IMG/VR virus record: IMGVR_UViG_3300031521_000025
Span: 47,458-111,457 of that record
Direction: 5' to 3' (one strand)
DNA: 64,000 bases
Origin: a virus
Positions 15,300 to 60,575 of this stretch are shown here, one piece after another. The stretch's first letter is position 1; each line of letters opens with the position of its first letter. A program made the translations under genes and the position numbers. A model generated the notes under the pieces. That model was not told the DNA's origin. It saw nothing but the letters and a program-made list of their open reading frames with translations, and ran no database searches.

Positions 15300-15420
15300 T
15301 TTTTTAGTCTTCTGGGGGAGAATAGATTACCAATCAACTTTAAGAATGCCAATAAAAAAAAGAAGAGATTGGTTAAAATTAACCCAAGAGAATTTAAAAA
15401 TATTATATGGAAAAAAATAA
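15262..15420 (+). CDS. Small overlapping frame after the gp26-like gene (start unclear, or +1 frameshift product)
   Basis: In the +1 frame relative to the upstream gene, an open stretch from 15238 runs to TAA at 15418-15420. It encodes INFLVFWGRIDYQSTLRMP, then IKKRRDWLKLTQ and NLKILYGKK. The composition is protein-like, unlike random AT-rich frames. A strong terminator starts right at its stop. There is no ATG before 15346; TTG at 15262 or ATT at 15295 could initiate, or ribosomes could slip +1 from the gp26-like frame, which stops at 15297. Small ORFs of this kind often follow gp26-type genes, and frame-shifted chaperone pairs next to tape measures are well known. Confidence 0.5.
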   Translation: MKSYREYLIKSINFLVFWGRIDYQSTLRMPIKKRRDWLKLTQENLKILYGKK

Positions 15421-15458
15421 CAAAAAAGGTGAAACAATAAAATTTCACCTTTTTTGTT
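15419..15458 (+). terminator. Intrinsic terminator
   Basis: Perfect 16-bp stem (15419-15434 with 15443-15458), loop CAATAAAA, with T6 inside the descending arm. It begins at the stop of the small overlapping frame, supporting that frame as the true end of the unit. Confidence 0.8.
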
Positions 15459-16014: not shown

Positions 16015-16546
16015 AAAAGTCACATTACATGATAAAAATTTTGTCTTATTTAAGACACAAGATCAAATAAACAATACAATAAAGAAAATTGCAACAAGTA
16101 TAAACAGTATGAACCCTATTAATTCAGTGTTTATCCCTGTTTTAAACGGTTCTTTTATGTTTACAAGTGATTTGTGTAAAGAACTAAAAATACTTCCGGA
16201 AATTCAATTTATTAAAGTCAAATCTTATGAAGATTTTGAATCATCTGGCAAGGTTACTGAATTAATAGGCTTAAAAGATTCTTTAGAAGGAAAAACTGTT
16301 TTTATTATTGAAGATATAGTTGATACTGGTATAACAATATCAAATCTTTATAATAAAATTAAACTTATGAATCCTAAAGAAATTTATGTAGTTACTTTAT
16401 TGTTTAAACCAGATAAATATAATGGAGGTCTTGATATAAACATTTTATATGGTTTTTCAATTGCAAATGATTTTGTGGTTGGTTATGGAATGGATTATAA
16501 TGAACTCGGTAGAAATCTTAAAGAAATTTATGTTTTAAAAGAATAA
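16007..16546 (+). CDS. hpt: Hypoxanthine(-guanine) phosphoribosyltransferase
   Basis: 179 residues from ATG 16007; the ATG at 15986 is in frame but would add seven residues and overlap the previous gene more. The PRPP-binding signature VFIIEDIVDTG lies at about 98-108 with the acidic pair E102-D103, followed by ITISNL. PVLNGSFMF near 44-52 and VGYGMDYNELGRN near the C-terminus match bacterial HPRT. The enzyme converts hypoxanthine or guanine plus PRPP to IMP or GMP, salvaging purines for phage DNA synthesis. It is unusual in phages. The gene ends at a strong bidirectional terminator. Confidence 0.85.
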   Translation: MNKKVTLHDKNFVLFKTQDQINNTIKKIATSINSMNPINSVFIPVLNGSFMFTSDLCKELKILPEIQFIKVKSYEDFESSGKVTELIGLKDSLEGKTVFIIEDIVDTGITISNLYNKIKLMNPKEIYVVTLLFKPDKYNGGLDINILYGFSIANDFVVGYGMDYNELGRNLKEIYVLKE

Positions 16547-16594
16547 AACATAAAAAAAGAGTTAAATTTGATTTTAACTCTTTTTTTATGTTTT
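16545..16594. terminator. Bidirectional intrinsic terminator
   Basis: Perfect 22-bp stem (16545-16566 with 16573-16594) with a 6-nt loop TTTGAT. A7 on one side and T7 on the other allow termination in both directions, between the convergent hpt and resolvase genes. Confidence 0.85.
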
Positions 16595-17174
16595 ATCTTA
16601 CTCTTTTTGTTTTTTTAATGGTTTTATTAATGTAGCCTTTGCCTGTAATATATGCGTCAGAACAGTCTAAAACAAAATCTTCATATACTGTTTTTCCTTT
16701 ATCTTTTCCTCTAGTTACTACCCTAGTTGGAAAATAGCTTTCTCCTAATTCAGCCAAAACATAAGCAAACATCTGCTCTTTTTGTTTCACTCCTGTGTTT
16801 TTTTTCATTATAGCGGTAGGAAATGCATATTTTCTTGAATCAGTTACAGTCATTGTATCAATCTTTAATCCAAGCTTATAACAGATTAATTGATAGCCAA
16901 AATTAGCTTGACTTAATGTAGTGGTAGTTTTAGAAGAACTATTCCCTCCAAACATCGCAACAAAAGCTTCTTCAATTACAACTTCGTCAATTTCGCTATG
17001 TCTTACAAGAATATCTTCTTTCAACCACTTTTCAAACTCTAATACTTTTTCTAATAAAGTATCTTTTTGAGGAACAGACCAGTGACTAATTTCAATTAAT
17101 TCACATGTTTCTTTACTCCATATACAAAACCCCACAGTTTTCGTAGAAGCATCCAGACTCAATAATTTTTTCAT
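16593..17174 (-). CDS. RuvC-like Holliday junction resolvase
   Basis: 193 residues with an RNase H-fold nuclease pattern: LSLDASTKTVGFCIW at the N-terminus (catalytic D8), VVIEEAF with E68/E69, and a C-terminal FVLDCSDAYITG with D170 and D173. These are the four acidic positions of RuvC and poxvirus A22-type resolvases. It likely resolves branched DNA made during recombination-dependent replication and before packaging, the job of endonuclease VII in T4. It is a single-gene unit: a CTTATTTTATAG motif lies on the minus strand upstream and it ends at the shared terminator. Confidence 0.8.
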   Translation of the reverse strand: MKKLLSLDASTKTVGFCIWSKETCELIEISHWSVPQKDTLLEKVLEFEKWLKEDILVRHSEIDEVVIEEAFVAMFGGNSSSKTTTTLSQANFGYQLICYKLGLKIDTMTVTDSRKYAFPTAIMKKNTGVKQKEQMFAYVLAELGESYFPTRVVTRGKDKGKTVYEDFVLDCSDAYITGKGYINKTIKKTKRVR

Positions 17175-17659: not shown

Positions 17660-18820
17660 ATGTATAGTCATAACAATGTATTAAAAAATGCGATTCAATA
17701 CTTCAATGGAGATGAATTAGCAGCTACTGTTTGGATGAACAAATATTGTTTGAAAAACAACAATGGAGATTTTTTAGAAAAGTCCCCAGAGGATATGCAC
17801 AAAAGACTTGCTAAAGAATTTGCAAGAATTGAAAAGAAATATCCAAACCCTATGTCAGAGGAAAAAATATTTGAATTAATTAATCGTTTTGATTATATTG
17901 TTCCTCAAGGCAGTCCAATGTCTGGTATAGGAAATAATCATAAAATTCAATCTATTTCAAATTGTTTTGTTATCAAAAACCCTTATGATTCTTATGCAGG
18001 GATATTTAAAACAGAGCAAGAAATGGTTCAATTAATGAAACGTAGAGGCGGAGTTGGGTTTAGTATACATTCTTTAAGACCTAAAGAAATGCCGACAAGC
18101 TCTGTTTCAGAAAAAAGTTCAGGAATTGTATTATTTTCAGAAAGATTTAGTAATGGAACAAGAGAAGTTGCTCAAGATGGAAGAAGAGGAGCTCTAATGT
18201 TAAGTTGTAGAGTTGATCATCCAGATATTGAAAGTTTTATAGATGCTAAATTAGATTTAAAGAAAATTACAGGAGCAAATGTATCTATAATGATTACGGA
18301 TGCTTTTATGGAAGCTGTAAAAGTTGATGGAGAATACGAATTAACTTTCATAGGAGAAAAAGGATCAATCTCAAAGAAAATTAAAGCAAAGAAAGTTTGG
18401 GATAAAATAATGTTTAATGCGCATAAAAGTGCAGAACCAGGAATTCTTTTTATGGATACTATTCATAATGAATCTCCTGTTAAAAATTACGGAGAAGAAT
18501 GGGTAGAAACTTCCACTAACCCCTGTGTTACTGGAGATACAATTGTAAAGACTTTAAATGGTGACTTAACTATAAAAGAAATTTTTGATAATAAAATTTT
18601 AGCAGATATTTATTCTTATAACACAGAAACTGAAAAAATAGAAGTTGATAAAATAGAAAATGTTTATTTAACTAGAAAAAACGCTAATGTTATAGAATTA
18701 GAATTAGATAATGGAGAAAGTATAAAATTAACCCCAGATCACAAAGTTTATACAAAAAACAGAGGCTGGACCCCTGCAGGTGTTTTAACAACAGAAGATA
18801 TTTTATTAAAAATTGAGTAG
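17660..18820 (+). CDS. nrdJ: Class II ribonucleotide reductase, N-terminal fragment fused to split N-intein
   Basis: 386 residues. Residues 1-288 are the N-extein of an adenosylcobalamin-dependent RNR: ISNCFVI with redox C102, then RRGGVGFSIHSLRP and TREVAQDGRRGALMLS. The extein ends ETSTNP. Residue 289 is the Cys that starts a 98-aa N-intein: CVTGDTIVKTLNGD at the front and TPDHKVYTKNRGW (block B with the TxxH) near the end, then a genuine stop. The C-half lies at 19614 after an endonuclease gene. The two polypeptides must be joined by trans-splicing into an about 826-aa enzyme that makes dNTPs. The intein resembles the metagenomic NrdJ-1 split intein. Promoter at 17620. Confidence 0.9.
   Translation: MYSHNNVLKNAIQYFNGDELAATVWMNKYCLKNNNGDFLEKSPEDMHKRLAKEFARIEKKYPNPMSEEKIFELINRFDYIVPQGSPMSGIGNNHKIQSISNCFVIKNPYDSYAGIFKTEQEMVQLMKRRGGVGFSIHSLRPKEMPTSSVSEKSSGIVLFSERFSNGTREVAQDGRRGALMLSCRVDHPDIESFIDAKLDLKKITGANVSIMITDAFMEAVKVDGEYELTFIGEKGSISKKIKAKKVWDKIMFNAHKSAEPGILFMDTIHNESPVKNYGEEWVETSTNPCVTGDTIVKTLNGDLTIKEIFDNKILADIYSYNTETEKIEVDKIENVYLTRKNANVIELELDNGESIKLTPDHKVYTKNRGWTPAGVLTTEDILLKIE
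18524..18817 (+). other. N-terminal half of split intein 1
   Basis: 98 codons from the catalytic Cys (TGT at 18524) to the last codon before the stop. Contains block A (CVTGDTIV) and block B (LTPDHKVYT). No endonuclease or C-terminal block is fused. Confidence 0.9.
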
Positions 18821-18829
18821 AAATCCGTG

Positions 18830-18877
18830 CCGATTCTATATTTAAATAAAAAGAAAATATGGAAAATATAGAATCGG
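18830..18877 (+). promoter_or_regulatory. Inverted repeat enclosing the endonuclease start codon, overlapping a promoter motif
   Basis: Perfect 14-bp repeat: CCGATTCTATATTT at 18830-18843 pairs with 18864-18877; the 20-nt loop holds ATG 18859. The promoter motif TTCTATATTTAAAT (18834-18847) overlaps the upstream arm. RNA read through from nrdJ could fold and hide the start; RNA begun at the local promoter would lack the upstream arm. Confidence 0.7.
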
Positions 18878-19656
18878 TAAAATCTTTATTAGAAGAAATT
18901 CAAAAAAGAGTTTTTTTAACAACAAGTACTTTAGTAAGGGTAGATAAAAACGGAAAAACAGTTAGAGTGGGTTGTGTAGCTCACGATGAAAAGAAAATAA
19001 AAGAAGATCCTCGTTACAAAACAACAAAAGATTGGTTATATTACAAATATATAAAAGAAGAATATAGTAGAAATTATTTAATTAAAGAATATAACTTAAA
19101 AGTTTCTTTATCTGTTTTTAAAAAAATATTTGAAATATTTGAAATTCCTGCAAGATGTTTAGGTACTGTTACTAATAGAACAAAAAGCCTAAGAAGTGAA
19201 AAGTCAAAAAAAGAATATGAAAAAAAAACTGGTTGGTGGGATAAAAAAGTATTTAGAGTTAATAAAGAATATAGCGGTAGAGGAATTCAAGGTTATTATT
19301 TTAACAAATCACTTCAAAAATTTGTATGGCTGCGAAGCTCTTACGAATATATTTACGCTAAGTGGTTAGATAATAATAACTGGGAGTGGGATGTAGAATT
19401 TAAAAGATACGAAGTAAAAGATAAAATTTATAGACCTGATTTTTTTATTTTCAACAATGGTGTTTTAAAAAAAATAGTTGAAATAAAAGGTTATTGGAAT
19501 AATACAAGTTGGAAAGTAGAAGAATTAAATAAAATATTAAAAATTGATGTTGCAATTATCAACAAAGAGGAAATTAAAAATTATACAATTAATGTTAGAA
19601 AAGATATAAAAGAATGGAAGGAAATAAGATTAAAGAAATTAGAATTAAAAAAATAA
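18859..19656 (+). CDS. Free-standing PD-(D/E)XK homing endonuclease within split intein 1
   Basis: 265 residues between the two intein halves. The N-terminal 110 residues are basic and include a helix-turn-helix-like stretch (YIKEEYSRNYLIKEYNLKVS) likely to bind DNA. The nuclease core is LRSSYEYIYAKWLD, then YRPDFFIFNNG and VEIKGYW: the PD...ExK catalytic pattern. It would cut intein-free nrdJ alleles and promote homing of the split intein. The last 43 nt overlap the C-intein ORF (19614). Expression is probably controlled by the hairpin and promoter at its start. It is not in frame with either intein half. Confidence 0.8.
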   Translation: MENIESVKSLLEEIQKRVFLTTSTLVRVDKNGKTVRVGCVAHDEKKIKEDPRYKTTKDWLYYKYIKEEYSRNYLIKEYNLKVSLSVFKKIFEIFEIPARCLGTVTNRTKSLRSEKSKKEYEKKTGWWDKKVFRVNKEYSGRGIQGYYFNKSLQKFVWLRSSYEYIYAKWLDNNNWEWDVEFKRYEVKDKIYRPDFFIFNNGVLKKIVEIKGYWNNTSWKVEELNKILKIDVAIINKEEIKNYTINVRKDIKEWKEIRLKKLELKK

Positions 19657-19739
19657 ACATAATTCAAAACGAAGATGTTTATGATATTACAGTTAAAAAA
19701 AATCATAATTTTTTTGCAAATGGTTTGTTAATTCATAAT
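19614..19739 (+). other. C-terminal half of split intein 1
   Basis: 42 codons from ATG 19614 to the terminal Asn before extein Cys (TGC at 19740). Overlaps the end of the endonuclease gene in another frame. Confidence 0.9.
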
Positions 19740-21356
19740 TGCGGAGAAATCCCACTGTGTGAGTTTGATTCTTGCAGGTTATTATCTCTTAATTTATTTG
19801 GATACGTAGTTAATCCTTTTACACCTGAAGCATATTTTGATTTTGAATTATTCAAAGAACATGTTAATTATGGTCAAAGAATGATGGATGATATTGTTGA
19901 TCTTGAGTTAGAAAAAATAGATATCATTTTAAATAAAATTGAAAACGACAAAGATGATGAAATTCTAAAACAAGTCGAAAGAGATTTATGGACAAATATT
20001 AAAAGAAAAGCAATATTAGGCAGAAGAACAGGTTTTGGGATAACAGCCGAAGGTGATATGCTTGCTGCTTTAAATATTCGTTATGGAACTCCAGCCGCTA
20101 CAATTTTTTCAATTGAAGTACATAAAACTTTAGCAATTTATAGTTACAAAACTAGTATAGATCTTGCAGAAGAAAGAGGTTGTTTTCCTATTTGGGATAA
20201 AGAAGTAGATGTAAAAAGTAATTACATTCAAAGAATTTTGCCAGAATTAAAACAAATAGGATATGAAGAAAAATATTTTAAATTTGGTAGAAGAAATGTA
20301 GCAAATCTTACAATTGCTCCTGCAGGATCTGTATCTTTATTAACAAGAACTACTTCTGGAGTAGAACCTGCGTTTATGATTTCTTATAAAAGAAGAAAAA
20401 AAATAAACCCTGAAGATGAAGGTGTAAAAGTTAATTTTGTTGATGTAAACGGTGACGCTTGGGAAGAGTATAATGTTTTTCATCCTAAATTTAGTTTATG
20501 GGCTAAAGTAAATGGATATGATACAGATTATATTAAAACATTACCTCAGAGCGAATTAGATAAAATTATTGAAAAATCTCCTTATTATAAAGCAACTTCT
20601 GCTGATGTTGATTGGGTAGAAAAAGTTAAGATGCAAGGAGCTATTCAAAAATGGATAGATCATTCAATTAGTGTTACTGTAAATATCCCAAAAGAAACTA
20701 CTGTTGAAACTGTAAATAAAATTTACACTGCAGCTTGGGAATCTGGCTGTAAAGGAATGACTATTTATAGAGATGGAAGTAGAAGTGGAGTAATGATTTC
20801 AAATGACGAACAAGATAGTAAATTTGAATATGTTGATTCTGCTAAAAGACCTAAAGAATTAGAATGCGACATTCATCACTTATCAGCATTAGGCAGCAAA
20901 TGGATTGTATTAATTGGATTACATGAAAATAAACCTTATGAAATTTTTGCACTTAAAGATGTCCAAGATAATGTTGAATTTGCAAAAAACTATACTAAAG
21001 GTAAAATTGTAAGAAGAAAAAAAGGTGTTTATGATTTAGTAAGTATAAAAGATCAAGTTTTACTAAAAGATATTGCTTCTTATTTTGAAACTGATGACGA
21101 AAGAGCTTCAACCAGAAGATATTCTTTAATGTTAAGACATAGAATACATCCTAAATATATTGTTTTTCAAGCAGAAGAAGAACCAGGATCTATTGTAGCT
21201 TTCAACAAAGCAATTGCTAGAACTTTAAAAAAATATTTAACTGAAGAAGATTTAAAATCTGTAGGAAAAGTATGTAAAGAATGTGGTTCTGAAAACTTAG
21301 CTATACAAGAAGGTTGTTTAGTTTGCTTAAATTGTGGAAGCTCTAAATGCGGATGA
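19614..21356 (+). CDS. nrdJ: Class II ribonucleotide reductase, C-terminal fragment with split C-intein
   Basis: 580 residues. Residues 1-42 are the C-intein: MEGNKIKEIRIKKI, then NEDVYDITV and block F/G HNFFANGLLIHN ending in the catalytic His-Asn. Residue 43 is Cys, first of the C-extein CGEIPLCEFDSC, which corresponds to the NPCGE thiyl-radical cysteine site of class II RNR; splicing thus rebuilds the active site. Further on are ILGRRTGFGITAEGDML, NLTIAPAGSVSLLTRTT and GMTIYRDGSR. The end is a Cys-rich zinc-ribbon-like tail (CKECGSENLA, CLVCLNCGSSKCG). No NrdB-type subunit is in the window, consistent with class II. Ends at a terminator at 21379. Confidence 0.9.
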   Translation: MEGNKIKEIRIKKINIIQNEDVYDITVKKNHNFFANGLLIHNCGEIPLCEFDSCRLLSLNLFGYVVNPFTPEAYFDFELFKEHVNYGQRMMDDIVDLELEKIDIILNKIENDKDDEILKQVERDLWTNIKRKAILGRRTGFGITAEGDMLAALNIRYGTPAATIFSIEVHKTLAIYSYKTSIDLAEERGCFPIWDKEVDVKSNYIQRILPELKQIGYEEKYFKFGRRNVANLTIAPAGSVSLLTRTTSGVEPAFMISYKRRKKINPEDEGVKVNFVDVNGDAWEEYNVFHPKFSLWAKVNGYDTDYIKTLPQSELDKIIEKSPYYKATSADVDWVEKVKMQGAIQKWIDHSISVTVNIPKETTVETVNKIYTAAWESGCKGMTIYRDGSRSGVMISNDEQDSKFEYVDSAKRPKELECDIHHLSALGSKWIVLIGLHENKPYEIFALKDVQDNVEFAKNYTKGKIVRRKKGVYDLVSIKDQVLLKDIASYFETDDERASTRRYSLMLRHRIHPKYIVFQAEEEPGSIVAFNKAIARTLKKYLTEEDLKSVGKVCKECGSENLAIQEGCLVCLNCGSSKCG

Positions 21357-21378: not shown

Positions 21379-21415
21379 AAAACCCTTAAATAAAATAAAA
21401 ATATTTAAGGGTTTT
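21379..21415 (+). terminator. Intrinsic terminator after nrdJ
   Basis: Perfect 14-bp stem (21379-21392 with 21402-21415) containing CCCTTAAA/TTTAAGGG, followed by T-rich sequence. Confidence 0.8.
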
Positions 21416-24947: not shown

Positions 24948-25922
24948 ATGCAAAGTAGAATTCTGTACATAGATGGCTTTAATTTGTTTCAAGCGAATTA
25001 TCGCTCTAATATAGCGCTAGATACAAATGGAGAACCTATAGGAGGGTTTATTGGAGTACTACAACAATTGAGGGGGTTAATTTACAAATTTTCCCCTCAA
25101 AAAGTACTTATGGTATTCGATGGACCAGATGCAGGTTTAAGAAGAAGAAGTTTGTATAGTGGATATAAATCAAAAAGAAGAGCAAAAAAACGATGTGCTA
25201 CAGTAAAATTAGGAGATGATTTGATCCAAACAGATAATGAATCAGAGCAATTAGAAAAATTGTTTAATGCTTTAAGAGTTTTGCCTGTACAATTGATTTC
25301 AGTTCCTTTTTACGAAGCCGATGATGTAATTTCTTATTTAGTTGCTAGAAACCCTGAATATAACAATATAATTGTATCTAACGATAAAGATTATTTACAA
25401 AGAATAACTGAAACTACACATGTTTATCAATTTACGAAAAAAAAATTGATGGATTTGAAAAAAGTAGAAGAAGAATTTGAAATTAATCCTAAAAATATTC
25501 TTTATTATAGATCAATAGTTGGAGATAGTTCGGATGAATTAATAGGGATTAAAGGATTAGGTAAAGATATTATAAATAAAATATCTGCGTTTAAAGAAAG
25601 AGCTTTTGATTCTTTTGGAGATTTTTGGAGTGAAATAGAAAGTCTTGAAGAAGGGAAAAGTAAAAAAATAAAACTACTTAAAGAAAATCAACAGCAAGCT
25701 TTGTTAATGTATCAATTAATGAGATTGGATGAAACTAGTTTAAATCAAAGAGCTATTAATTTAGTAAGATCTCAATTAGATGAACAATTAGATAAGCCTT
25801 TTTCCAGTATTGGGTTTAAAATCTTTTGCACAAAAAACAAGCTTAATATTCAGTTAAAAGATCCTGATAGTTTTTTAAGTGGGTTTTTTGCACTTAAAAG
25901 AAAAATAGAAATAAATACTTAA
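24948..25922 (+). CDS. 5'-3' exonuclease / RNase H (FEN family, T4 rnh-like)
   Basis: 324 residues. The N-terminal ILYIDGFNLFQ, VLMVFDGPDAGLRR, FYEADDVISYLV and IIVSNDKDYLQ give the acidic metal-binding cluster of flap endonucleases; GDSSDELIGIKGLGKDI is the helix-hairpin-helix. It removes RNA primers and flaps from lagging-strand fragments. It starts 3 nt after the recA-like stop, so the two form an operon that ends in a strong terminator at 25922. Confidence 0.88.
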   Translation: MQSRILYIDGFNLFQANYRSNIALDTNGEPIGGFIGVLQQLRGLIYKFSPQKVLMVFDGPDAGLRRRSLYSGYKSKRRAKKRCATVKLGDDLIQTDNESEQLEKLFNALRVLPVQLISVPFYEADDVISYLVARNPEYNNIIVSNDKDYLQRITETTHVYQFTKKKLMDLKKVEEEFEINPKNILYYRSIVGDSSDELIGIKGLGKDIINKISAFKERAFDSFGDFWSEIESLEEGKSKKIKLLKENQQQALLMYQLMRLDETSLNQRAINLVRSQLDEQLDKPFSSIGFKIFCTKNKLNIQLKDPDSFLSGFFALKRKIEINT

Positions 25923-25965
25923 AATAAAACAAGCTAAAATTAAAACATTTTAGCTTGTTTTATTT
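25922..25965 (+). terminator. Intrinsic terminator after FEN
   Basis: Perfect 18-bp stem (25922-25939 with 25948-25965) around AAGCTAAAA/TTTTAGCTT, loop TTAAAACA, T-rich descending arm. Confidence 0.85.
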
Positions 25966-26021: not shown

Positions 26022-27353
26022 ATGCAAGAAAATAATTTAAAAAAGTTCGGTCAAGATTTTCAATTATCAGTGCTTTCTCTTTTTTTTCAAGATAAATCTT
26101 TTACAAACAAAATTAAAGATATTTTAGAACCTGACTATTTTGATAATAAGTATTCTAAATGGTTTTGTGAAAAAGGTTTAGAATACTTAGAAAAATATAT
26201 GAACTTTCCATCTTCTGTAAAGGTTTTTAATATTTTAAAAACAATAATTGAAAAAGAAGTTGAAGAAAAAATGGCTAAAACATATCTTAGTGTTTTAGAA
26301 AAAATTTCAGAAGTTGAGTTAAGCGATAGAGAATATGTAGAAGCAGAAGTTTTTAATTTTTGTTTTACTAAATTTGCGTTAAAACAATTAGAAGAACAAA
26401 AAAATCAAATATTGTTAAACAATTTTGATGATGCAAGAAGGGTTGCTTTTAGTACATATACACCTATAGCAAAAAACAGTCAAGAGTTTTCTTTAAAAAA
26501 AGATTATAAGATTGCTTCAAAAGCCAAAGAACATTTAAATCCAATTCCTTTTCCGTTTAAAACTTTTACAGAAAACACAAGTGGAGGTCCTGGTGCTGGA
26601 GATTTAGCTATCATTATGGCTCAATCTAACTTTGGAAAAAGTAACTTTTTAGTTGCTTGGGCAAGACACGCGGCTGAAGTTGGACATAACGTTATTTATT
26701 TTACTTTAGAAACCAAAGGAGAGCAATTAATTGATAGAGCAATTGCAGGGTTAACAAGAATTAACCAAGCGGAGTTAATAAACCATGAAAAATTAATTGA
26801 ATCTAGGGTTAATAAAGTTTTAGGTGATGTTAAGTTTATTAAAATAAAATCTACCTTAGCTCGAATAGAAGTAGTTAAACAAAAAATTGAAGAAGAAAAA
26901 GCAAACGGCTTCTTTCCTGATTTTGTTATAATTGATGGACTAAATCAATTAAAAGCTTCTAAAGGTATGAATTTCAATGGAAATTCAAATGATAAATTTG
27001 AATATCTTTCTGAAGAACTTAGAGACATGGGAGAAGAATATGGAATCCCTATAGCAACCGCCTTTCAGAGTAACAGATGTTTAGCTTTAAACACTTTAGT
27101 GGATTTAAAAGATAAAGGTAAAGTTAAAATAATATCTTTAAAAGAAGGCGATGAAATTTTAACACATAAAGGGTATAAGAAAGTTACTAAAATATACCCA
27201 ACAGAAAAACAGCCTGTTTATAAAATCAAGTTAAAATCTGGTAAAGAAATAATATGCTCGGGAAAACATGAGTTTCCTTTAGAAAATGGAGAATTATTAA
27301 GCATAGAAGAAGGGTTGCAGCAAGGTTTCAAACTATTGACAAAAAAAATATAG
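26022..27353 (+). CDS. DnaB/gp41-type replicative helicase, N-terminal fragment fused to split N-intein
   Basis: 443 residues. The N-terminal domain (1-160) is helical; the RecA-like motor has Walker A MAQSNFGKS (K206, S207), catalytic E230 (FTLE) and Walker B FVIIDGL (D305). The extein ends at 352 in IATAFQSNR, the DnaB H4-type motif. Cys 353 begins a 91-aa N-intein (CLALNTLVDLKDKG; KEIICSGKHEFP as block B), then a stop. The C-half is at 28612, after an endonuclease gene. Sequence and insertion point closely resemble the gp41-1 split intein known from marine metagenomes. Trans-splicing would give a 457-aa 5'-3' helicase for replication. Confidence 0.88.
   Translation: MQENNLKKFGQDFQLSVLSLFFQDKSFTNKIKDILEPDYFDNKYSKWFCEKGLEYLEKYMNFPSSVKVFNILKTIIEKEVEEKMAKTYLSVLEKISEVELSDREYVEAEVFNFCFTKFALKQLEEQKNQILLNNFDDARRVAFSTYTPIAKNSQEFSLKKDYKIASKAKEHLNPIPFPFKTFTENTSGGPGAGDLAIIMAQSNFGKSNFLVAWARHAAEVGHNVIYFTLETKGEQLIDRAIAGLTRINQAELINHEKLIESRVNKVLGDVKFIKIKSTLARIEVVKQKIEEEKANGFFPDFVIIDGLNQLKASKGMNFNGNSNDKFEYLSEELRDMGEEYGIPIATAFQSNRCLALNTLVDLKDKGKVKIISLKEGDEILTHKGYKKVTKIYPTEKQPVYKIKLKSGKEIICSGKHEFPLENGELLSIEEGLQQGFKLLTKKI
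27078..27350 (+). other. N-terminal half of split intein 2
   Basis: 91 codons from Cys TGT 27078 to the codon before the stop at 27351. Block A CLALNTLV, block B ICSGKHEFP. Confidence 0.9.
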
Positions 27354-27361
27354 TTGTTTGA

Positions 27362-27420
27362 AAAGAAAGTTGTATTTAAATATAAAATGGAAAATAAATT
27401 AAAAAAATACAACTTTCTTT
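27362..27420 (+). promoter_or_regulatory. Inverted repeat enclosing the endonuclease start codon, overlapping a promoter motif
   Basis: Perfect 16-bp repeat AAAGAAAGTTGTATTT (27362-27377) pairing with 27405-27420; the 27-nt loop holds ATG 27387. A promoter motif AGTTGTATTTAAATA (27368-27382) overlaps the upstream arm. Same architecture as at 18830-18877, with unrelated sequence in the arms. Confidence 0.7.
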
Positions 27421-28610
27421 GTTGTAAAAAATACAAAGATCTTGTTTTGACTAACGATCAAATTGAAGAAATAAAAAAAATTCAAGATTTTTACGGCAAG
27501 AAAAAATTCAACGATCAATGGGGTAAAATAAAACATTTAGTAAAGGCAAAATATTCTCCTGATTGGGTTGAGAAAATTATTTCTTTAAAAAAAACAAATA
27601 ACTCTTCTTTAAAGTGGTTTATTGTGTTATATGGAGAAGAGGAAGGAAAATTAAAATACCAAGAAAAAAACATCAAAGTAGGAGGATCTTTAAATTCTTA
27701 TATTTTAAAATATGGAAAAGAAGAAGGTTCTGAAAGATATAAAAAAGCTTGTGAAAGTAAAAAAGGTCAATCTACAGAACAATGGTATATAAATAGATAT
27801 GGAGAGGAAGAAGGAAAACTAAAATGGAAAAAAATAAAATCTTCATGGAAGGAAGCTAATTTAAAAACAATAAAAGAAGGAAAAAGAAAAGGAAATGGAA
27901 GAAGTTTAAAAGAATATGTTTTAAGATATGGAGAAAAAGAAGGAGAAAGTTTATGGAGTAAAAGAAACTTGAAGCAAAGTCAAAGGTTTAGTTTGCAATA
28001 TTATACAGATAAATACGGAATAAAAGATGGAAAAAATAAATGGCAAGAATATTGTAAAAAAATGGATAAAGGATCTTTACAATATTTTACGAAAAAATAC
28101 GGAGAAGAAGGGTTAAACAGATATAAAGAAAGAAGTAAAGTCTGTAATTTTGGAGGCATGGGTTTAGAAAACTTAATTTTAAAATACGGAGAAGAAGAAG
28201 GGAGAAATAAATACCAAATATGGGTAAATAAAACCATGATTAATAAAAACAAAAGTATTAATTATAGTAAAATTTCTCAAGAATTATTTTGGAACATTTA
28301 CAATGAACTACCTGTAAGTTTAAAAGAAAAAGTGAAATTTGCAGAATTAAACGAAGAGCAAATGTTTAAAGTTTGGAAAAATGGAATGACTGTAATATTT
28401 GTAGATTTTAAACTTAATAAATGTATAATTGAATTTCAAGGAACTTATTGGCATAGTTTTTTAGAAGTTCAAGAAAAAGATAAAAAAAGAATTGATTTTT
28501 TAGAAAACTATGGTTATAAAGTCTTATGTTTAAAACAAAAAGATTATTTAAAAAATAAAATTAGCGTTACTAAAAATTGTATAGAGTTTTTACTTAAAGA
28601 AAGCAAATAA
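27387..28610 (+). CDS. Free-standing Vsr-like homing endonuclease within split intein 2
   Basis: I start it at ATG 27387 in the hairpin loop (407 aa); an upstream in-frame ATG at 27354 directly follows the N-intein stop and would add only 11 residues. Residues 80-270 contain about six repeats of a module ILKYGEEEGKxxY/W with spacing near 25-40 residues, probably DNA-binding units. The C-terminal 100 residues are the nuclease: VIFVDFKLNKCIIEFQG, TYWHS, then KDKKRIDFLENYGYKVLCL, the fold of Vsr-type/EDxHD endonucleases. It would cut intein-less helicase genes. It ends 1 nt before the C-intein ATG. Confidence 0.8.
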   Translation: MENKLKKYNFLCCKKYKDLVLTNDQIEEIKKIQDFYGKKKFNDQWGKIKHLVKAKYSPDWVEKIISLKKTNNSSLKWFIVLYGEEEGKLKYQEKNIKVGGSLNSYILKYGKEEGSERYKKACESKKGQSTEQWYINRYGEEEGKLKWKKIKSSWKEANLKTIKEGKRKGNGRSLKEYVLRYGEKEGESLWSKRNLKQSQRFSLQYYTDKYGIKDGKNKWQEYCKKMDKGSLQYFTKKYGEEGLNRYKERSKVCNFGGMGLENLILKYGEEEGRNKYQIWVNKTMINKNKSINYSKISQELFWNIYNELPVSLKEKVKFAELNEEQMFKVWKNGMTVIFVDFKLNKCIIEFQGTYWHSFLEVQEKDKKRIDFLENYGYKVLCLKQKDYLKNKISVTKNCIEFLLKESK

Positions 28611-28611
28611 A

Positions 28612-28743
28612 ATGATTAAAGAATTAGAGCTATTAGAATTAGATGAAATAGAAAGTATAGAGTTTTTGGGAGAAGAAGAAACTATTGATATTTGTGTAGA
28701 AGATACTCATATGTTTTTTGCAAACGACATATATACCCACAAT
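28612..28743 (+). other. C-terminal half of split intein 2
   Basis: 44 codons ending THN before extein Ser (TCG at 28744). Very like the gp41-1 C-intein in length and in the FFAND-x(3)-THN end. Confidence 0.9.
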
Positions 28744-29061
28744 TCGGGTTTCAACACAGAATACGCAGATGAACAAAGTATTGGTAAAGCAATTGAAGTA
28801 TATCAAGTATGTGATTTAATGATTTTCTTTACACAATCCATAGGGATGCAAGATCAAGAAGAATGTTATGGTCAATTAATGAAAAACCGCTTAGGTAAGA
28901 AAGGGATAGCTTTAAAAATTGGATATAACCCAAATCATGCTACTTTTGAAGAATTGGAAGTCGTTAGTAGATTAAGTTTAATGGATAAAGGAGAAAAAGG
29001 TTCTGTTTTAAGAGGAATTGATAAAATAAGAAAGCAAAATTTAGAAAGAGCTCAAAAATAA
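28612..29061 (+). CDS. DnaB/gp41-type replicative helicase, C-terminal fragment with split C-intein
   Basis: 149 residues. Residues 1-44 are the C-intein: MIKELELLELDEIES, then ETIDICVEDTHMFFANDIYT and the terminal HN. Residue 45 is Ser, the +1 nucleophile, starting the C-extein SGFNTEYADEQSIGKAIEVY, which carries the end of the DnaB motor (VYQVCDLMIFFTQS and an arginine-finger-like KNRLGKKG). Alone it cannot be a helicase; it needs trans-splicing with the 26022 product. The gene runs into a HAD hydrolase gene 16 nt downstream. Confidence 0.88.
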   Translation: MIKELELLELDEIESIEFLGEEETIDICVEDTHMFFANDIYTHNSGFNTEYADEQSIGKAIEVYQVCDLMIFFTQSIGMQDQEECYGQLMKNRLGKKGIALKIGYNPNHATFEELEVVSRLSLMDKGEKGSVLRGIDKIRKQNLERAQK

Positions 29062-40693: not shown

Positions 40694-41533
40694 ATGAGAT
40701 CACCCGTAAAATTAAGCGAATCAAAAAAAAGACTCTTTTTAGAACCAGAAGTCGTAACTTATTTAAAAAACGTTGAAAAGCTTAAAAAGAATTTTACAAA
40801 AGATGAAGAAAGAGAGTTAATTATTAGAGCTCAAAAAGGAGATATTGAAGCTAGAAATGCTTTAGTAGAAGATAATTTAAAGTTTGTAGTAGCTTGTGCG
40901 AAAGAATTTCATAATCACAAAACAAACATTAGAGATTTAATTAGTAGCGGTAATTTAGGGTTAATAAATGCAATTAATAAATATGATCTTACAAAAGATT
41001 CAAAATTAATATCTTGCGCAGTTTGGTGGATTAAAGCCGAGTTGCAAAATTACATTTACGACAATACTTTAGTTCACATTCCTCTTAATAAAATTAAAGA
41101 AGTTGAAAAAGTTAATGCTAGAATTAAAAGTACAGAAGAAAAAGGTGATTTTTTAAACGCTGAAGATACATTTTCTTCTTCTAAAGTAAGTTATTCTCAA
41201 GCATCAAGTGGAATGGAAAATCTTGTAAGTTTAGACATTTCAAATAGTTTAGAAAACGAAGACGCTTACGAAATCCCTTCAAACAATACTATTGATTCTT
41301 ATAGTATTTTTAAATCTAAAGATAATCTATATAACGTAAATAAAGTTTTAAAAGTATTAACACCACTTGAAAAAGAATTATTCGTTGAAAAATATGGAAT
41401 TTATGGAGAAGAAGCTAGAACAGACGAAGTTTTGTGTACAAAGTTTGGAATAAGTAGTTTTGTTGTAAAAAAAACAATTAAAAGTTCTATTGAAAAAATT
41501 AATAAAGTTATTAAAATTGAAGAATTAGTATAA
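40694..41533 (+). CDS. Phage-encoded sigma-70-family RNA polymerase sigma factor
   Basis: 279 residues. Region 2: DNLKFVVACAKEFHN, then DLISSGNLGLINAINKYDL and SCAVWWIKAELQNYIYD (2.3-2.4, the -10 recognition helix). VHIPLNKIKEVEKV follows as region 3. Region 4 is weak: LTPLEKELFVEKYGI and LCTKFGISSFVVKKTIKSSI (HTH-like). It would direct host RNA polymerase to phage promoters; the CTTATWTTTAAAW motif in this window is the obvious candidate. A probable stress- or late-type factor. Confidence 0.88.
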   Translation: MRSPVKLSESKKRLFLEPEVVTYLKNVEKLKKNFTKDEERELIIRAQKGDIEARNALVEDNLKFVVACAKEFHNHKTNIRDLISSGNLGLINAINKYDLTKDSKLISCAVWWIKAELQNYIYDNTLVHIPLNKIKEVEKVNARIKSTEEKGDFLNAEDTFSSSKVSYSQASSGMENLVSLDISNSLENEDAYEIPSNNTIDSYSIFKSKDNLYNVNKVLKVLTPLEKELFVEKYGIYGEEARTDEVLCTKFGISSFVVKKTIKSSIEKINKVIKIEELV

Positions 41534-46247: not shown

Positions 46248-46299
46248 AAGGTTTTTAATTGTATTTTTACTCGTTATTTAAAATACAATTAAAAACCTT
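46248..46299 (+). terminator. Perfect 20-bp inverted repeat with a promoter motif in its loop
   Basis: 46248-46267 pairs perfectly with 46280-46299; 12-nt loop. The right arm is followed by TTTAATTTT, so it can terminate the upstream operon. A promoter motif GTTATTTAAAATAC (46273-46286) runs from the loop into the right arm and would start dnaE transcription. Confidence 0.65.
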
Positions 46300-59271: not shown

Positions 59272-59345
59272 AAACCAACATTTACTTTTCATTATTTCAA
59301 TTTAATTGATTTTATATGTATTTAATACAAGAATATTGCTTAAAA

Positions 59346-59360
59346 GTAATATTTAAATTA
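59346..59360 (+). promoter_or_regulatory. Phage promoter motif (variant)
   Basis: GTAATATTTAAATTA, 21 nt before ATG 59382. Confidence 0.4.
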
Positions 59361-59381
59361 AACGTATAAAATCAATTAATA

Positions 59382-60575
59382 ATGAAATTACTTACCAACC
59401 TCGATCTTGGGAAAAACCAAATTCTTAATGTAGCTTTACAAAATTTAGCAGTACATCCAGGATCTCCAGCAAATGGACAAATTTATTATAACACTACAGA
59501 TAAAGCAGTTTATTTTTATGATGGAACTGCTTGGCAATCTGTTTTAGGTGATATAACTTCTGTAAATGCAGGAAATGGTTTAACTGGTGGTGGTGCTTCA
59601 GGAACTGTTTCTTTAGGTGTGTTAATAGATGGTTCTACTCTATCGGTAAGTGCTTCTGGAGTTAAAATTTCAAGCGGTGGTGTATCAGCAACAGAATTGG
59701 CTTCAAATGCTGTTACAACTATTAAACTTACAGATAAAAATGTAACTTTTGCAAAAATTCAAGATGTTGCTACTATGACTGTATTAGGTAGAGTAACAGC
59801 AGGAACAGGAGTTACTGAATCAATTGGAATTGTAACAGATTTAGCAAATGCTTCAGCATCTACGTTAGCAACTTCTACAGCTATTAAAACTTATGTTGAT
59901 AATACTTTAACAGGGTTTGGAAACCTTGAAGGTAGTTTTGATGCTACAAATACAACCTTTCCAGTAGGTTCGGGTGGTGGAACAAAAAAAGGTGATTATT
60001 GGTATGTTTCTACACCTGGCAATATTGGAGGTTTACATCAACTTAATACAGGTGATGTTTTAATTGCAAATAAAGATAATGCTTCTACAACATCAGCTGC
60101 AGATTGGATTTTTCTTGAAAGTAATTTTAACCAAGCAACTACTACTGTTTTAGGTTTAGTAAAATTAGCAACAAATGCTTTAGGTCAAGGATTAACAGAT
60201 ACAACTTCTGTGATTACTCCAGCTGTTTTAGGGACAATTCTTGCTTCTGAAACTCAAAAAGGTATAGCTCAAGTAGCTACACAAGCTCAATCAGATGCAG
60301 GAACTGACGATACAACAATTGTAACTCCTAAAAAATTAAAAGCTACTTTAGATTCTAGAACTGGTGGTTATGCTGTTAGTTTAGGAGATGGAGTAGCAAC
60401 AGCATATTCAATATCACATAACCTTGGAACTTTAGATGTAATAATTGACCTTGTAGAAGTTTCAACTGGAGCTACTGTATATACTGATATTTCAAGAACA
60501 TCTACAACAACCATAAATATATCATTTTCTGTTGCACCTACAACAAACCAATTTCGTGTTGTAATAAAAAAATAA
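59382..60575 (+). CDS. Tail fibre protein, 397 aa
   Basis: The N-terminal MKLLTNLDLGKNQILNVALQ, then NGQIYYNTTDKAVYFYDGTAW, is the standard fibre-start module (labels 'g.iyyntt..k...y.gt.W'). Ala/Thr/Gly-rich repeats follow, with GTDDTTIVTPKKLKATLDS before the end. The C-terminal ATAYSISHNLGTLDVIIDLV...FRVVIKK is a tip domain related to that of the previous gene. Binds host surface; receptor unknown. Confidence 0.75.
   Translation: MKLLTNLDLGKNQILNVALQNLAVHPGSPANGQIYYNTTDKAVYFYDGTAWQSVLGDITSVNAGNGLTGGGASGTVSLGVLIDGSTLSVSASGVKISSGGVSATELASNAVTTIKLTDKNVTFAKIQDVATMTVLGRVTAGTGVTESIGIVTDLANASASTLATSTAIKTYVDNTLTGFGNLEGSFDATNTTFPVGSGGGTKKGDYWYVSTPGNIGGLHQLNTGDVLIANKDNASTTSAADWIFLESNFNQATTTVLGLVKLATNALGQGLTDTTSVITPAVLGTILASETQKGIAQVATQAQSDAGTDDTTIVTPKKLKATLDSRTGGYAVSLGDGVATAYSISHNLGTLDVIIDLVEVSTGATVYTDISRTSTTTINISFSVAPTTNQFRVVIKK

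Follow-up and report, generated by a model that had tools for sequence, protein, structure and literature searches.

Hairpin and late-promoter control is already known for several phage endonuclease genes, namely I-TevI, I-TevII, I-TevIII, segB and mobE (PMC2988022). In T4, a hairpin in the long early RNAs blocks translation of I-TevI, whilst a late promoter inside it gives rise to RNA without the 5′ arm (PMC2988022). The I-TevI operator is a copy resembling the homing site and overlapping the promoter, and through it the enzyme represses its own late promoter (PMC2988022). In Aeh1 mobE and T4 segB, a free-standing endonuclease gene adjoins an early gene or lies within it, the early gene being that of a reductase in the case of mobE; an RNA hairpin hides the start and there is a late promoter (PMC2988022).

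The DNA considered here, referred to as the window, is a stretch of 64,000 nucleotides from the virus record IMGVR_UViG_3300031521_000025 (111,457 bp, 27% GC). Two of its genes, those for a gp41 helicase and for the ribonucleotide reductase NrdJ, are fractured: each consists of two gene halves with intein halves, and a different endonuclease gene occupies each gap. Enzyme genes which a split intein divides into halves, an endonuclease gene of a Vsr-like family lying between them, were reportedly described by Dassa et al. 2009 (NAR 37:2560), whose abstract is said to mention gene control elements in some loci. The two hairpins found at the endonuclease starts of the window belong to a wide pattern, the mechanism of which is known from T4-like phages (PMC2988022).

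Fractured genes and their parts

The features of both loci are collected in Table 1. The helicase N-half ends with a TAG codon, and the intein cysteine directly follows ATAFQSNR. The start assigned to the 407-residue endonuclease is consistent with its homologues. Its catalytic domain is homologous to PDB 3r3p, with acidic and histidine residues conserved (block VDFK..IIEFDGDYWH). Judged by its sequence, the protein is a Vsr-like (EDxHD) homing endonuclease with putative cleavage activity. A third putative endonuclease gene, of HNH type, is present in the same record (L007:4568-5407); it has a perfect TATATTTAA 5′ of its start and no long repeat.

Table 1. Coordinates of the features discussed, numbered from the first nucleotide of the window
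Feature	Position	Strand	Remarks
nrdJ N-half + N-intein	17660-18820	+	PF02867, PF14890
AATCCGTGCCG, possible copy of reductase insertion site	18822-18832	+	1 mismatch to AAYCCNTGYGG; not significant alone
nrdJ endonuclease hairpin CCGATTCTATATTT	18830-18843 / 18864-18877	+	14 bp; 20-nt loop; ATG 18859 in loop
Second endonuclease gene (PD-(D/E)xK-like)	18859-19656	+	265 aa; weak profile match to T7 endonuclease I, 7e-4
C-intein + nrdJ C-half	19614-21356	+	PF02867, PF14890
DnaB-like (gp41) helicase N-half + N-intein	26022-27353	+	PF03796 3e-14, PF14890 5e-5
gp41 hairpin 5′ arm AAAGAAAGTTGTATTT	27362-27377	+	Perfect complement of 27405-27420
Promoter-like motif TGTATTTAA	27371-27379	+	1 mismatch from TATATTTAA; overlaps 5′ arm
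Vsr-like endonuclease gene	27387-28610	+	407 aa; DUF559 3.5e-5; PDB 3r3p profile match 8e-7
gp41 hairpin 3′ arm AAATACAACTTTCTTT	27405-27420	+	Within codons 7-12 of endonuclease gene
C-intein + helicase C-half	28612-29061	+	C-intein matched by 80 viral loci
Sigma-70 family factor	40694-41533	+	PF04542 8e-8; phrog_351 1e-34
Third hairpin, before tail-fibre-like gene (59382-60575)	59302-59379	+	TGTATTTAA at 59317, beside 5′ arm

Hairpins at the endonuclease starts

The preliminary description placed a perfect 16-bp inverted repeat at 27362-27420 and assigned it a particular layout. The coordinates are exact, with 16/16 positions of the arms complementary around a 27-nt loop. The layout also holds: the N-intein stop (27351-27353) is followed by the promoter-like motif lying over the 5′ arm, by the ATG (27387) in the loop and by the 3′ arm inside the coding region. 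The fold is more stable than dinucleotide shuffles (z = -4.4) and matched no family in an Rfam search. The stem is A+U-rich and no U-run follows the 3′ arm. A Shine-Dalgarno (SD) site is not evident at this start, and the start codon is unpaired, residing in the loop and not in the stem; the accessibility predicted for it rises only slightly, from 0.79 to 0.96.

The nrdJ endonuclease start carries a second repeat, and the two are indeed, as had been claimed, different in sequence and alike in layout, with the motif TATATTTAA at 18837-18845 and a fold z of -6.1 against dinucleotide shuffles. The layout of hairpin plus promoter recurs at an ordinary structural gene of the window, the tail-fibre-like gene, where 15 bp pair perfectly and 18 bp at 94% (z = -7.8, dinucleotide shuffles).

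The promoter-like motif and a candidate sigma factor

Among the 9-mers located up to 60 nt 5′ of ORF starts in the record, TATATTTAA shows the strongest enrichment; it is found in 13 upstream regions (25 occurrences in total). It is enriched 18.5-fold at these positions, is predominantly in the sense orientation (13 versus 3) and mostly lies 7-30 nt 5′ of the ATG. Genes preceded by it include those for the tape measure and the baseplate hub, and TGTATTTAA is also found 5′ of further genes. Counts of TATTTATA versus TATAAATA before ATG codons in four other phage records were too noisy to establish the orientation of the motif there, while the sense orientation is clear in the record of the window. 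We infer that the motif is a promoter which is active late. It may not be strictly late, since it also occurs 5′ of nrdJ and of the helicase gene. The phage encodes a sigma-70 family factor which is, from its sequence, a candidate reader of TATATTTAA.

A proposed late-expression switch

We consider it probable that the hairpin and the motif together form an I-TevI/mobE-type switch for late expression of the endonuclease. RNA reading through from the helicase gene upstream would fold around the endonuclease start, and translation would thereby be blocked. RNA begun at the motif would, by analogy with T4 late promoters, start near 27385-27390, at about the ATG; because the motif overlaps the 5′ arm, this RNA would lose that arm and could be translated. 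The endonuclease would thus be made only when the internal promoter is active, presumably late. Since the ATG of the window lies in the loop, any repression would need to work through the ribosome footprint.

Recurrence in homologous loci

Comparison loci (80 per search) were collected with C-inteins and endonucleases as queries, and the starts of other genes in these loci or contigs served as controls. The nrdJ endonuclease or the helicase alone as query gave no matches in viral contigs; the C-intein/endonuclease alignments did match. In 25 distinct loci of the gp41 type, the endonuclease starts had a fold z of -1.94, versus -0.06 in 180 control starts (p=1.3e-6), and TATTTA[AT] occurred within 45 nt of 23/25 of these starts, as against 32/180 controls (p=2e-13). 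Reductase-type starts (n=26 loci) gave a fold z of -3.40 versus -0.38 in controls (p=1.5e-9). Fold stability was confirmed in held-out loci of both the gp41 type (p=1.6e-4) and the reductase type (p=6.6e-8). Taken individually, about half of the gp41-type starts and a third of the reductase-type starts are not significant. In many relatives, such as L025, L048, L062 and L185, the 3′ arm includes the start codon or a sequence resembling an SD site, as in T4 I-TevI and Aeh1 mobE (PMC2988022).

The inverted-repeat search across split-intein loci which the preliminary description had envisaged speaks for function: the hairpin recurs in both endonuclease families. As a limit to this, the repeat is absent from the endonuclease starts of L015 and L047, and L010, the closest homologue (48% identity), has neither hairpin nor motif. 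C-intein starts in 11 loci where no endonuclease ORF was detected showed no hairpin and one motif. Two of these, L086 and L088, have gaps of ~190-230 nt and may hold an endonuclease remnant. The hairpin is not universal, since no significant hairpin accompanies the endonuclease homologues of other fractured genes (those for DNA polymerase, helicase and terminase; L001 and L003).

Fractured genes also exist in cultured phages. Klebsiella phage KP13-7 (OP617745; L334:1789) has a fractured nrdA with a 14-bp hairpin directly before the inserted ORF, TAATAAATA in its loop and a z of -5.5. In the T4-like Vibrio phage vB_VmeM-32 (KU160494; L335:993-1062), DNA polymerase and RecA-like genes are fractured, and the depositors annotated a terminator just 5′ of the inserted ORF at 1062.

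Copies of the predicted target site near the promoter motif

The 5′ regions of the endonuclease genes frequently contain copies of the predicted target site of the endonuclease in the host gene. The reductase insertion-site pattern AAYCCNTGYGG (codons Asn-Pro-Cys-Gly), allowing at most 1 mismatch, was present in 13/26 reductase-type 5′ regions and 0/178 control starts (p=9e-14), whilst none of 300 permuted patterns matched more than 2 regions. Because the pattern was first spotted by eye in these same loci, the result from held-out loci, in which 9/25 had a copy versus 0/178 controls (p=1.5e-9), is important. The gp41-type loci have, ~25-60 nt 5′ of the ATG, a copy in antisense of the Trp-Thr-Ala-Val-Gln codons, which in the helicase lie just before the intein insertion site. 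The match of this copy to the helicase of its own locus (15.0, versus 6.7 in control regions; p=7e-11) is also better than that to the helicases of other loci (361 versus 282 +- 15, p=2e-4), and held-out loci agree (p=3e-8). For example, where the helicase of L073 reads WTASQ the copy reads TGG ACA GCA TCA CAA, and where that of L039 reads TVSQ the copy reads ACA GTG TCT CAA. Copies beside the promoter were seen in endonuclease 5′ regions across L009-L331, L172 and L239 being further examples. By analogy, these copies resemble the autorepression operator of I-TevI; in the gp41 type they track the target of each host.

We are inclined, if only a little, to think that two unrelated endonuclease families independently built the same three-part module, comprising a start-hiding hairpin, an internal late promoter and a target-copy operator that keeps pace with the target gene. 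Were this so, the operator would allow the specificity of the enzyme to be read out from sequence alone.

The enrichment of copies in these regions also lends itself to a different explanation of the repeats, according to which they are DNA operators, that is, inverted endonuclease-binding sites by the promoter through which the gene is self-repressed, the folding of the RNA being incidental. Some reductase-type loci (L189, L307, L308 and L316) do have copies in both arms. However, the stems often reach well beyond the copy (~22 bp in L189, ~23 bp in L011), they contain G-U pairs, their loop lengths vary widely, and a target-site copy sought in the gp41 hairpin region of the window yielded none that was convincing. 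We regard this explanation as unlikely.

Chance, co-variation of the arms and termination

Long repeats might be expected by chance in DNA of 27% GC, and a composition artefact could be argued from the lack of a hairpin in the closest homologue. An order-2 Markov model was applied to the whole 111,457-bp record for perfect repeats with arms of at least 14 bp and loops of 3-60 nt. It predicts 0.25 such repeats, against 9 observed; with arms of at least 16 bp, 0 are expected and 6 observed. Loops of at least 20 nt occur in just 3/9 of the repeats, those at the starts of the gp41 endonuclease, nrdJ endonuclease and tail-fibre-like genes; all three thus lie at gene starts, with TATATTTAA or TGTATTTAA (TATTTAA) lying within the 5′ arm or adjacent to it. 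The remaining 6/9 have loops of at most 14 nt and are terminator-like. The other perfect repeats at 16543-16596, 46248-46299, 25922-25965, 15419-15458 and 21379-21415 are long, have short loops and are probably terminators.

The arms themselves were compared between loci in an arm-swap test, in which the 5′ region of a locus was paired with its own start region or with the start regions of other loci. Own-locus duplexes were more stable in both families (-11.4 versus -8.9 kcal/mol, n=65; -14.4 versus -10.1 kcal/mol, n=52), with p=5e-5, the floor of the test, in each; the arms therefore co-vary. The covariation check put forward in the preliminary description stands in this form. Its column-wise counterpart was less successful: in two small alignable clusters, only 1-2 pairs had changed on both sides, for the most part no more than in shuffles. 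As compensatory columns are so few, a point which chance could also claim, the argument for covariation rests mainly on the arm-swap. The earlier view that the repeats reflect function and not chance is upheld, in that the repeat recurs at homologous fractured-gene endonuclease starts with arms which differ in sequence yet pair. The Markov expectation and the difference between endonuclease and control starts lead us to reject pure chance; as two unrelated endonuclease families both show an excess and co-varying arms, a result seen again in held-out loci, chance or composition is very improbable.

Least probable of all is a role in terminating transcription or in RNA processing that would limit read-through into the endonuclease gene, a reading which could be likened to the six terminator-like repeats of the record and to the weak terminators near the starts of T4 mobE and segF (PMC2988022), but which we reject on the features of loop and stem (27 nt, A+U-rich, U-run absent after the 3′ arm) and which is at odds with the read-through needed for the downstream C-intein half.

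Comparison with known systems

Both fractured genes and the hairpin/late-promoter switch have been described before. As far as the literature searched shows, and Dassa et al. 2009 aside, the breadth of the pattern, the co-variation of the arms and the target-tracking copies are new. With the fractured genes of that study the window shares the split-intein layout and the Vsr-like family. The catalytic domain of the gp41 endonuclease matches by profile that of the I-Bth0305I-type (EDxHD, Vsr-like) homing endonuclease (3r3p). According to its PDB record, 3r3p is a mobile intron protein, whereas the protein described here lies in a split-intein gap and has an N-terminal region of YGEEEG repeats.

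The target-site copies would allow endonuclease recognition sequences to be predicted and autorepression to be tested directly, and the proposed switch suggests how an essential early gene can harbour an endonuclease. The closest parallels are with T4 I-TevI, I-TevII and I-TevIII, which share the layout of a hairpin with an internal promoter, putative in the window, together with the target copies found in relatives. The T4 genes reside in group I introns and encode GIY-YIG or HNH enzymes, whereas those described here reside in split-intein gaps and encode Vsr-like or PD-(D/E)xK-like enzymes; the promoter motif also differs, as does the position of the ATG, which the window has in the loop. 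Two further parallels, Aeh1 mobE and T4 segB, belong to the HNH and GIY-YIG families and, in contrast to the present genes, are not associated with a split intein. The proposed switch would carry the T-even control scheme over to the fractured genes of many environmental phages, with the scheme recurring in other enzyme families.
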